Shown piece by piece: positions 12,742-31,457 of a DNA stretch of 36,906 nt (positions within the stretch are counted from its first letter, which is position 1; the number at the start of each line of letters is the position of its first letter). The notes beneath the pieces were generated by a model. The model was not told where the DNA came from, did no database searches, and was given only the letters and a program-made list of their open reading frames with translations. The stretch covers positions 1 through 36,906 of the IMG/VR virus record IMGVR_UViG_3300031565_000161; one strand, given 5' to 3'. The translations under genes were made by a program, and so were the position numbers. Source of the DNA: a virus.

Positions 12742-13434
12742 ATGGCAGCAACGACGGAACGCAAGCGCCGCACAGTCGGCAGCAACGGAACCAACCGTGT
12801 GCCCGAGGACACGACGTCCAACGTGGTCATCCAGGCCCCGCGGATGCGGGTGGCCGCTTTCAAGATCCGGGGCACGTCCCCGTTGGTCATGCACAACTTC
12901 AGCCAAAAGTCCCGGAAGGAGATGATGGACAAGATGGCCGCCGGCTCGCAGGCCAAGAGCAAGAAGGTGCGCACGCCCCGTGACTACGATGACGACTTTG
13001 AGAAGGCCAAGCACGTCAGCACGGCGGGCTGGTACGGCATCCCGGCCAAGGCCTTCAGCTGCGCGATGATCAGCTCGTGCAAGATCGCCAGCTTCGTCAT
13101 GACCCGGGCGAAGATCAGCGTCTTCATCGAGGCTGACGGGTACGACGTCTCGGACGGGACACCCCTCGTGCGGATGGAGTCTCCGAACGAGCCCGAGCGC
13201 GTTGAGCACTATGTCCGCCCGGAGAAGGGGGGTACCGACATCCGCGTGCGCCCCATGTGGCGGGAGTGGAGTGTATCCCTGCGTGTGCGGTGGGACGAGG
13301 ACATCCTCTCGGCCGCGGACATCACGAACCTGCTGATGCGGGCCGGGATGCAGGTCGGCATCTTGGAAGGTCGCGCCGATAGTCGAAAGTCCAACGGCAT
13401 GGGCTGGGGCTTCTTCGAGCTGGTGCAGGACTGA
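12742..13434 (+). CDS. Conserved phage protein of unknown function, GTSPLVMH type
   Basis: 230 residues. The order is FKIRGTSPLVMHNFS, an STAGWYGIPAKAFSCAMI stretch, VRPMWREWSVSLRVRWDE and a C-terminal MGWGFFEL. I recognise this as a widespread phage family without a settled function; the glycine-rich end and beta-rich core recall RAMP/Cas7-like folds, but that is speculation. I chose the ATG at 12742 because GAGGAG is 8-10 bases upstream and the promoter lies at 12663-12691. It is followed by a long terminator, so it is probably monocistronic. Confidence 0.65.
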   Translation: MAATTERKRRTVGSNGTNRVPEDTTSNVVIQAPRMRVAAFKIRGTSPLVMHNFSQKSRKEMMDKMAAGSQAKSKKVRTPRDYDDDFEKAKHVSTAGWYGIPAKAFSCAMISSCKIASFVMTRAKISVFIEADGYDVSDGTPLVRMESPNEPERVEHYVRPEKGGTDIRVRPMWREWSVSLRVRWDEDILSAADITNLLMRAGMQVGILEGRADSRKSNGMGWGFFELVQD

Positions 13435-13444
13435 TACAACACAG

Positions 13445-13512
13445 TGGGTGCGGGGGAAGACAGCTCGTCGTCCTCGTTGGCCGGCGGTCTGGGGGCCCTT
13501 CCCCTGCACCCA
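13445..13512 (+). terminator. Long-stem terminator
   Basis: A 15-nt arm (13445-13459, TGGGTGCGGGGGAAG) pairs with 13498-13512 (CTTCCCCTGCACCCA) with one G-U wobble and a 38-base loop, followed by AGTTTGT. It separates the upstream gene from the first pentamer array. Confidence 0.6.
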
Positions 13513-13520
13513 GTTTGTAA

Positions 13521-13726
13521 CAAGGCAGGTATGGTGCGGTTCGGTTCGGTATGGTGCGGTGCGGTCGGGTGTGGTATGGCAGGTTGGATATGGTGAGGTT
13601 TGGTCCGGTCGGGTTGGGTAGGGCAAGGCAGGTTCGGTTTGGTGCGGTAGGGCAGGGTTGGGTAGGGCAAGGCAGGTGTGGCGAGGTCCGGTCCGGTCCG
13701 GTGGGGCCCGGTAGGGCAAGGCAGGT
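13521..13726 (+). repeat. Degenerate GGYNN pentamer array 1
   Basis: 206 bases made almost wholly of pentamers GGYNN (mostly GGTNN). They are organised in four blocks of 54, 49, 44 and 49 bases, each ending in GGCA; three of the four end in the fixed tail GGTAG-GGCAA-GGCA. Each 4-base GGCA resets the phase. GG dinucleotides recur every five bases on the coding strand, an ideal layout for two-tetrad G-quadruplexes. It accounts for most of the 312-base gap between 13434 and 13747 and ends 20 bases before a start codon. A long open frame on the opposite strand is an artefact of the 15-base codon period. Confidence 0.9.
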
Positions 13727-13746: not shown

Positions 13747-14211
13747 ATGAGGTGGAACTCGATCACGCACGACATCCGTGCCGAGTTGGATGCTATCAAC
13801 AAAGCAAACGACGGGCTGACGGAAGAGCTGGTCGTGCAGGCCAGCAAGAAGAAGAGCAGTGCGCTCCACCCGTTGTTTCTGTGGGACAACCCAGAAGAGG
13901 CGGCGCACATTGGTCGGCTGGAGATTGCTCGCAAGCTGATCATGCGGGTGCGCATCATCGCCTACGAAGTCCCGGACACGAAGATCGTCGTGGACGTCCG
14001 CAAGTACCACGGAACAGGCAATGGGTACAACGACATCGACACGGTGATGTCCAGCGAAGCGTTGCGGGCACTGGTCGTGCAGAACGCGATCCGGGATCTG
14101 GAGAATCTCGAACACAAGTACGCGCACATCCGGCAGATCGCCGCGGTGTTCGCTGGTGGCGTGCGAGCTTTGAAAGAAGAGATCAAGCGGCTGGAAGAAG
14201 CTGCTGTTTGA
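13747..14211 (+). CDS. Conserved phage protein with W-D-N core
   Basis: 154 residues. The pattern IRAELDAINKAN..LTEELVVQASKKKSSALHPLFLWDNPEEAAHIGRLEIARKLI matches a family common in phages and prophages (helical domain, a Leu-His-x-x-Phe-x-Trp-Asp turn, then an Ala-Arg-rich helix). Function is unknown. It ends in a coiled-coil helix. It is the first gene after pentamer array 1, with AGGGGG upstream of the ATG, so the array would lie in its 5' untranslated RNA if transcription runs through. Confidence 0.65.
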   Translation: MRWNSITHDIRAELDAINKANDGLTEELVVQASKKKSSALHPLFLWDNPEEAAHIGRLEIARKLIMRVRIIAYEVPDTKIVVDVRKYHGTGNGYNDIDTVMSSEALRALVVQNAIRDLENLEHKYAHIRQIAAVFAGGVRALKEEIKRLEEAAV

Positions 14212-14244: not shown

Positions 14245-14499
14245 ATGACTGGCTGGGTTGTGGTGAACATTCCGTTCGGTACGGTTTACGAGCCTACTCC
14301 CAACGACGGTAAGAGGCACTTGCTCGTCGAGGCTGACAGTCTTACTAAGCGGGGGTTGGCCAAGCCTGGGGTAGTCATCGAAGTAGATGGTTCCGAGTAC
14401 CTGATCGGCGACATCAACACATTAGGAGGTGTGTGTGATGATTGTGCGGATGTTCGGAGTCATGAGATCGTGACAAGGTACAAGGTGGTGTACCCGTGA
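14245..14499 (+). CDS. Hypothetical 84-aa protein between the two arrays
   Basis: 84 residues, beta-rich, with a C-x2-C (VCDDCAD) near residue 66 and no recognised family. GAGGAG precedes the ATG. Composition is lower in GC than average. Only six bases separate its stop region from pentamer array 2, so array 1, two genes and array 2 form a compact module. Confidence 0.5.
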   Translation: MTGWVVVNIPFGTVYEPTPNDGKRHLLVEADSLTKRGLAKPGVVIEVDGSEYLIGDINTLGGVCDDCADVRSHEIVTRYKVVYP

Positions 14500-14504
14500 T
14501 GTGT

Positions 14505-14803
14505 CAAGGCAGGTTTGGCAAGGTTTGGTCTGGTCGGGTCTGGTCGGGTTTGGTCCGGCAAGGCAGGTGCGGTGAGGTCCGGTCCGGTCCGGTCCGGCAG
14601 GGTCTGGCAGGTGAGGCAAGGTGAGGTTGGGTGAGGTTTGGTTTGGTGAGGTAGGGCAAGGCAGGTCTGGTTTGGTGCGGCATGGTTCGATGTGGTGCGG
14701 TAGGGCAAGGCAGGTGCGGCAGGGTTAGGTCTGGTCGGGTTGGGTAGGGCAAGGCAGGTGTGGTTCGGTGCGGTCGGGTAGGGTCGGGTAGGGCAAGGCA
14801 GGT
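14505..14803 (+). repeat. Degenerate GGYNN pentamer array 2
   Basis: 299 bases with the same grammar as array 1. There are six blocks of 54, 44, 54, 49, 44 and 44 bases, each a run of 8-10 pentamers GGYNN plus the 4-base phase-breaking GGCA. The tail GGTAG-GGCAA-GGCA ends four of the six blocks; of the other two, one ends GGTCC-GGCAA-GGCA and one GGTCT-GGCA. Departures from GG at the pentamer start are rare (for example GATGT). It ends 14 bases before the GTG at 14818. It fills the 318-base gap between 14499 and 14818. Confidence 0.9.
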
Positions 14804-14817
14804 AAGGGGGACAAAGT

Positions 14818-15063
14818 GTGAAACGTGGCGTTGATGCAGAGCTGAAGAAGTCGTGGAAGGGCTGGACGACAACGCTGCCGACGAAGCCATCGCAGCGATG
14901 GTTCAAGCTGACGCTCAGCTGTCCCATGGAGCCGTGCGAGGTCTTCGAGGTCCCCGGTGAGGGGCTCTTCGTGGAGACCATGTCGTCCCGGGTGAGCAAG
15001 CCGGTTTCTAAGATGACCGGCTCGATCTGGGGCCCGAAGCTCGTTCGGCCGAAGGAACCCTGA
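14818..15063 (+). CDS. Hypothetical 81-aa protein
   Basis: 81 residues from the GTG at 14818, with AAGGGGG upstream. It is beta-rich with several Trp residues (KKSWKGWTTTLPTKPSQRWFKLTL) and one C-x3-C (CPMEPC). Not recognised. It lies directly downstream of pentamer array 2 and is coupled to the next gene by a TGATG overlap. Confidence 0.5.
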   Translation: MKRGVDAELKKSWKGWTTTLPTKPSQRWFKLTLSCPMEPCEVFEVPGEGLFVETMSSRVSKPVSKMTGSIWGPKLVRPKEP

Positions 15064-15259: not shown

Positions 15260-16200
<941 letters not shown>

Positions 16201-16201
<1 letters not shown>

Positions 16202-30790: not shown

Positions 30791-31014
30791 TGGTTCGTCT
30801 CCTCGGCCTTGTCGGCGTCCCGCTGGGCTACGCGCTTCGCGTCCCGCTGCGTCGGGCAGTACCGGTTGATCTTCCGGGGTGGTGATTCGTCGTTGCAGTA
30901 GACCGCGTACCCCTGCGGGGTCGTGCGACCGATGAAGTACGCCTCGATGCTGTAGCGGCCGCACTTGCTGTCGGTGAACCCGTCCTCGCTGCGGTTCCAT
31001 CGGAGCGTGGTCAT
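30787..31014 (-). CDS. WNRSE...SKCGRYSIEA domain protein (duplicate)
   Basis: 75 residues, MTTLRWNRSEDGFTDSKCGRYSIEAYFIGRTTPQGYAVYCNDESPPRKINRYCPTQRDAKRVAQRDADKAEETNQ. It is a clear paralogue of the C-terminal half of the next gene upstream (31011-31457), with nearly the same start, Cys-Gly-Arg-Tyr core and DKAEETN end. A tandem duplication is the simplest explanation. It starts in an ATGA overlap. The fold is a small beta domain used alone in other actinophages; its function is unknown. Confidence 0.65.
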   Translation of the reverse strand: MTTLRWNRSEDGFTDSKCGRYSIEAYFIGRTTPQGYAVYCNDESPPRKINRYCPTQRDAKRVAQRDADKAEETNQ

Positions 31015-31457
31015 CGGTTCGTCTCCTCGGCCTTGTCGGCGTCCCACTGGGCGTATTGCTTGGCGTCACGCTGCGTCGAGCAGTACCTGTTGACGGTCAC
31101 CCGGGTGCCGTCGGACTCGTTGCGGTACACGCCGTAGGCTTGCGCCGTCGTGCAGCCCATGTACTGGGCCTCGACGCTGTAGCGGCCGCACTTGCTGTCG
31201 GTGTTCCCGCCTTCGCTGCGGTTCCATAGGAGCGTGGTCATTGGTTCGTACTCCTCGGTCGGTGTCCAGGTCAGCTCGTGCAGGCTGACGCCCGGCGCGT
31301 TGCTGCGCATCGGGCGAACGCGCACGGCGTAGCGGGTGCGGCAGGCCGGGCAGGTCCGGCGCACGACCTCGGTCGCGCACTGGTGCCCGGTGTAGAACCC
31401 GCGGACGGCGCGGCCGCAGCACGGGGTCTGTCCGTTCGTCGTGGCTGCAGTGGTCAT
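31011..31457 (-). CDS. Zinc-ribbon plus WNRSE-domain protein
   Basis: 148 residues in two halves. Residues 1-50 are Cys-rich (PCCGRAVRGFYTGHQC, RTCPACRTRYAVRV), a zinc ribbon. From about 73 (MTTLLWNRSEGGNTDSKCGRYSVEA) to the end it is the same domain as the downstream 75-residue gene. An internal ATG (31241) begins exactly where the downstream paralogue begins, so a short form may also be made. It has a full TTAGAAA-type promoter and AAAGGAG leader and heads a four-gene operon. Confidence 0.65.
   Translation of the reverse strand: MTTAATTNGQTPCCGRAVRGFYTGHQCATEVVRRTCPACRTRYAVRVRPMRSNAPGVSLHELTWTPTEEYEPMTTLLWNRSEGGNTDSKCGRYSVEAQYMGCTTAQAYGVYRNESDGTRVTVNRYCSTQRDAKQYAQWDADKAEETNR

Follow-up and report, generated by a model that had tools for sequence, protein, structure and literature searches.

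The window analysed here is the whole 36,906-nucleotide stretch of the IMG/VR virus record IMGVR_UViG_3300031565_000161, and all of the features of the locus lie on its plus strand. The vipr gene (12742–13434; phrog_4652, PHROG E-value 5e-15) encodes the 230-residue Vipr protein, and its start codon was chosen from a GAGGAG Shine-Dalgarno sequence together with homology. A strong GC-rich hairpin (13445–13512; the fold of 13430–13535 has −47.7 kcal/mol, z −2.66) lies past the vipr stop codon and ahead of array 1, and may act as a terminator or as a processing or capping element. It is followed by array 1 (13521–13726), a putative vap gene encoding a 154-residue Vipr-associated protein (13747–14211; phrog_15946, PHROG 3.3e-14, with a profile match in the window of 8e-34), a small 84-residue ORF without a family match (14245–14499) and array 2 (14505–14803). 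The 81-residue ORF on the 3′ side of array 2 (14818–15063), also without a family match, is probably the next gene of the operon, which does not imply membership in the VIPR system. Elsewhere in the window, the ORF at 15260–16201 contains an acidic GAC/GAG repeat tract (15578–15819) and would encode an Asp/Glu-rich, low-complexity protein, a 227-base unit is tandemly duplicated in about two copies at 30792–31258, and the hexamer AAATCT is repeated 8.5 times near the contig end (36799–36849).

By direct parsing, the 299 bases of array 2 resolve into the opening CAAGGCA, six blocks of 54, 44, 54, 49, 44 and 44 bases (14512–14565, 14566–14609, 14610–14663, 14664–14712, 14713–14756 and 14757–14800) and a final GGT, in agreement with the preliminary description, which had divided this array without remainder into six blocks of 5n+4 bases. 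Array 1 is built in the same manner, from CAAGGCA, four GGYNN blocks of 54, 49, 44 and 49 bases (13528–13581, 13582–13630, 13631–13674 and 13675–13723) and a closing GGT. Inside the blocks of both arrays, GGY (Y = C or T) recurs with a period of five bases, leaving two free bases (NN) between the triplets, and the last unit of every block is one base short, reading GGCA before the next GGT. Each block contains 9–11 GGY triplets, and a degenerate triplet (GAT) occurs once per array. The opening CAAGGCAGGT and the closing GGCAAGGCAGGTAA are common to both arrays, as had been described, and the constant part amounts to only 7–14 bases. The arrays end 20 bases upstream of ATG 13747 (array 1) and 14 bases upstream of GTG 14818 (array 2), as was also noted earlier, and a Shine-Dalgarno-like run, AAGGGGG, lies a few bases after the final GGT of each. 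This placement before start codons arises because the arrays occupy intergenic space on the coding strand.

The pattern is far from what chance would produce. The sequence GGCAAGGCAGGT occurs in eight exact copies, as compared to 0.23 expected with up to one mismatch allowed, and the longest chain of GGY triplets in steps of four or five bases reaches 37 units, while shuffling gave at most 6 units when the window was permuted (100 replicates) and at most 10 when the array itself was permuted (1000 replicates). Scanning the whole window on both strands yielded arrays 1 and 2 only, both on the plus strand, and no third array. No Rfam match was found in the window, in the UmaThurman and Felixounavirus loci, or in 13 further array loci. 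Two long antisense ORFs over array 2 (14504–14890 and 14460–14999, minus strand) are probably artefacts of the GGY-rich strand, and may mislead gene callers.

The protein encoded at 12742–13434 is Vipr, a Cas7/Csm3-like RAMP protein with a C-terminal glycine-rich loop. The profile of the larger family matched a single solved protein, SUSP1 Vipr (PDB 36pp; E=4.4e-37), to which the Felixounavirus homologue is nearly identical. The model of the window Vipr (pLDDT 86) superposed on Csm3/Cas7 with a Foldseek E-value of 1.9e-5 (Z 11.8, 3.8 Å, 151 residues), and the region of the glycine-rich loop contains invariant G, R and W positions across the family. The product of the candidate vap gene was modelled with a pLDDT of 90. 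Foldseek returned no match with an E-value below 1 for this model, comparison with PDB folds gave only weak, mostly helical matches, and the protein as a lone query retrieved no related loci. A profile comparison with SUSP1 vap1, for which P0002 was taken from its position beside vipr, revealed no similarity.

To place the locus in a wider context, we picked 42 Vipr relatives by protein sequence only and compared them with 80 control viral loci. Within 3 kb of vipr and in the same orientation, 35 of the 42 relatives carry a GGYNN array, as against none of the 80 controls. A vap-like gene accompanied 39 of the 42 relatives, again against none of the 80 controls, while the three exceptions have a contig cut near vipr or a broken vipr match; the ORF at 13747–14211 is the window's copy of this conserved partner gene and a candidate vap. 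Within the relatives' arrays, GGCA leads directly into GGC or GGT at 243 of the 258 four-base steps, and the distances from junction to junction are 5n+4, mostly 39–59 bases with peaks at 44, 49 and 54. Since GGCA junctions and 5n+4 distances recur among the relatives, the block rule of the preliminary description is a rule of the family.

A pattern scan of viral contigs with seven GGYNN units plus GGCAGGT recovered at least 118 stretches. Among the matches listed, the contigs range in G+C from 0.35 to 0.74, the arrays reach 228 units and many loci hold more than one array. Of the listed arrays with a called upstream gene, 120 of 141 share the strand of that gene, as judged with a crude gene caller, and many start within a few bases of that gene's stop codon, on its far side. 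The flanking proteins in these matches belong mainly to two families, of ~155 and ~200 residues, and the two genes bordering array 1 in the window (phrog_15946 and phrog_4652) are members of them; the genes on the 3′ side of the listed arrays do not form a single family. The phrog_4652 gene of Felixounavirus phages is likewise adjoined by short arrays of the same kind. When flanking proteins were tested against known CRISPR or defence families, no match was obtained, and no cas genes were noted beside the window arrays. In six loci (L013, L029, L049, L086, L112 and L123), a third flanking family of ~225–250 residues appears ParB-like by eye and is possibly another accessory gene; one member gave no significant match in Pfam. 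Five other loci (L012, L077, L079, L091 and L098) carry long GGYNN arrays, on both strands in L091, and their guides are not visibly separated, because four-base steps are nearly absent.

These features correspond to a system reported only in 2026, the Viral Interference Programmable Repeat (VIPR) of Escherichia phage SUSP1 and Felixounavirus, a phage RNA-guided DNA-recognition system that is related to CRISPR and has been proposed as its forerunner (PMC13142463; bioRxiv 2026.04.26.720920; Vipr structure, PDB 36pp). Vipr itself is a RAMP protein with an RRM core and a G-loop, and the RNAs bound by it consist of 9–16 units, in which GGY alternates with NN, and are encoded beside vipr and vap; the vrRNA is expressed as a Vipr-bound species of ~100 nt (PMC13142463). 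GGY holds Vipr and the NN dinucleotides specify the DNA target, so that the vrRNA recognises double-stranded DNA while leaving out one base of the target for every unit, and the omitted base usually falls at a codon wobble position (PMC13142463). For the two clades that were examined there, most predicted targets belong to a satellite phage and to prophages (PMC13142463).

Given that the neighbouring protein is Vipr and that the published RNAs share the GGY/NN grammar, we conclude with high confidence that the two arrays are guide-RNA arrays, encoding VIPR guide RNAs (vrRNAs) that would bind Vipr, read DNA with a skip and repress the genes of rivals. The preliminary description had viewed each array as a leader of the downstream start codon, a view that found no support, as the arrays read as non-coding guide RNAs for the neighbouring RAMP-type protein. 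By analogy with the published system, from which Vipr–RNA binding, the skip rule and repression are carried over to the window locus, each five-base unit of the RNA would be occupied by one copy of Vipr in a row of such copies, holding the GGY triplet and leaving NN exposed. The successive NN dinucleotides would then pair with double-stranded DNA, passing over one target base per unit. Competing phages or prophages would have their genes repressed by the bound complexes, and the vap-like protein may assist in this. We further infer that each block of 44–54 bases constitutes one separate guide, and that the one-base-short GGCA before the next GGY would serve as a fixed guide boundary, replacing a structured RNA tail.

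The free dinucleotides themselves provide a test of the decoding rule that requires no known target. We collected 7137 NN dinucleotides from array loci among the matches listed, and compared them with the neighbouring genes in the 93 loci with enough coding sequence. The fit of NN to codon positions 1–2 surpassed that to positions 2–3 by 615 bits and that to positions 3–1 by 1763 bits, and the composition-corrected dinucleotide odds correlated with r=0.90 for positions 1–2, as compared to 0.71 and 0.74 for the other phases. This codon-phase signature is the trace expected of a wobble-skipping code and supports the one-base-skip rule for the array family, although part of it could stem from Vipr binding some NN dinucleotides in preference to others.

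The division into guides is less firmly set than their nature. Staggered arrays with overlapping vrRNAs are named for some types in the preprint, which also gives seven VIPR types and vap1–6 (PMC13142463), and the same junction motif stands at the start and the end of each array, so that neighbouring guides could share a junction. A functional guide spanning the junction, a variant within VIPR, is therefore possible, but we hold it to be rather doubtful, as blocks of 9–11 GGY fit the published 9–16 repeats per vrRNA (PMC13142463).

Readings outside VIPR fare considerably worse. If a TRAP-like protein with a five-base footprint bound the array as a regulatory mRNA leader and controlled translation of the next gene, the period of five, the triplet with two free bases, the 9–11 units per block and the position before start codons would all be accounted for. 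Nevertheless, the partner protein is a Vipr/Cas7 relative and not TRAP, the listed arrays reach up to 228 units and precede genes that do not form one family, and the codon-phase signature is not expected of a passive spacer, which together make such a leader very unlikely. A role at the DNA level, as an origin, a partition site or an R-loop former with a G-rich non-template strand, would suit the G-rich coding strand and the few flanking genes that look ParB-like; however, it predicts neither the junction, nor the Vipr partner, nor the codon phase, and many loci hold several arrays, so we regard it as highly improbable. Neutral pentamer slippage, yielding a repeat tract without function, is hardly credible: direct repeats whose lengths differ by whole units would suit it, but the GGY triplets are conserved, whereas NN is close to random (3.89 of 4 bits), and the strand of vipr and the identical junction across unrelated contigs, forming a conserved cassette, already contradict it. 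The slippage and leader ideas were dropped after the Vipr family emerged. Thus, the earlier proposal that selection acts on spacing rather than on sequence stands in part: one grammar and a maintained block end are kept while the pentamers differ, indicating that the frame of GGY and spacing is constrained, whereas its alternative of growth by slippage is opposed by the near-random NN, which differ between blocks.

On the reading of the arrays as VIPR guides, we searched for their targets. When each of the ten window guides was compared with its own genome, it exceeded the reversed control by one base at most, a result that favours the guide reading. Exact scans with three window guides gave chance-like counts and no convincing target: block A1-1 (18 bases) had five viral matches, all in unrelated sequences, block A2-1 had one viral and four genome matches without shared context, and block A2-3 (16 bases) matched 86 stretches, in which the next dinucleotide was not enriched (AG in 5 of the 80 examined, equal to the chance rate of 1 in 16). 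In an all-against-all search of ~700 guides in 1.8 Mb, a skip of one base gave no excess over the controls. A skip-3 excess in that search came from unmasked arrays.

A more suggestive case came from the Gordonia phage UmaThurman. For one of its blocks, a run of nine dinucleotides gave nine viral matches at 18/18, seven of them in the same small head gene, with a one-base skip and the skipped base at the wobble position. In the mycobacterial phages and prophages concerned (L267, L268, L269, L270, L271, L272 and L274), this gene adjoins the one for the major head protein. The guide had no match among 394 genomes of the class or in UmaThurman itself, and the other UmaThurman guides had no matches at the head-gene loci. 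The sequence matches suggest that the small head gene is a target, and suggest no more than this because the seven matches are mutually homologous, about two matches are expected by chance and the other guides miss these loci. Nearly all of the annotated UmaThurman gene gp40 (L127:5969–6292; NC_031249.1, 33362–33685) coincides with a VIPR guide array, and a protein-coding role for it is improbable.

Among known systems, class 1 CRISPR-Cas (Csm3/Cas7) shares with the window locus the RAMP fold and the glycine-rich loop of the protein, as well as guides divided by a constant motif that stands at both ends. In contrast, the window arrays use a gapped pentamer code instead of contiguous spacers and contain no palindromic repeats. 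A CRISPR array was ruled out, since the constant part is much shorter than the identical ~25–40-base repeats of CRISPR. TRAP sites consist of NAG triplets with two-base spacers in ~11 units, bound by a ring protein. The triplet, the spacer and the number of units are alike, but the window triplets are GGY, the arrays have multiple blocks, no TRAP homologue was recognised and the partner is Vipr; on the triplet and the partner, the arrays are not classed as a TRAP-regulated leader.

The closest likeness is to the VIPR system of SUSP1, with which the window locus shares the Vipr family, the coding-strand GGY/NN repeats beside vipr, a block size within the published range (PMC13142463), a small accessory gene and the setting in a phage genome. 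This phage is a new VIPR carrier, and the array grammar allows VIPR loci to be found from raw sequence. In the SUSP1-type (type II) system, a structured 3′ tail follows each repeat tract, whereas the window arrays show none by sequence: the blocks adjoin directly at GGCA-GGY, and the Shine-Dalgarno-like run follows the final GGT. Such junction arrays raise the question of how a multi-guide RNA is cut without a tail. The accessory gene differs as well, being vap1 in SUSP1 and a member of a different family without a recognised fold in the window. Because its blocks abut without a tail, we do not class the window locus as SUSP1-type. Tailless head-to-tail guides, a GGCA unit serving as the repeat and a phrog_15946 accessory of unmatched fold could conceivably mark, as we tentatively propose, a distinct VIPR type outside those described in the preprint text.
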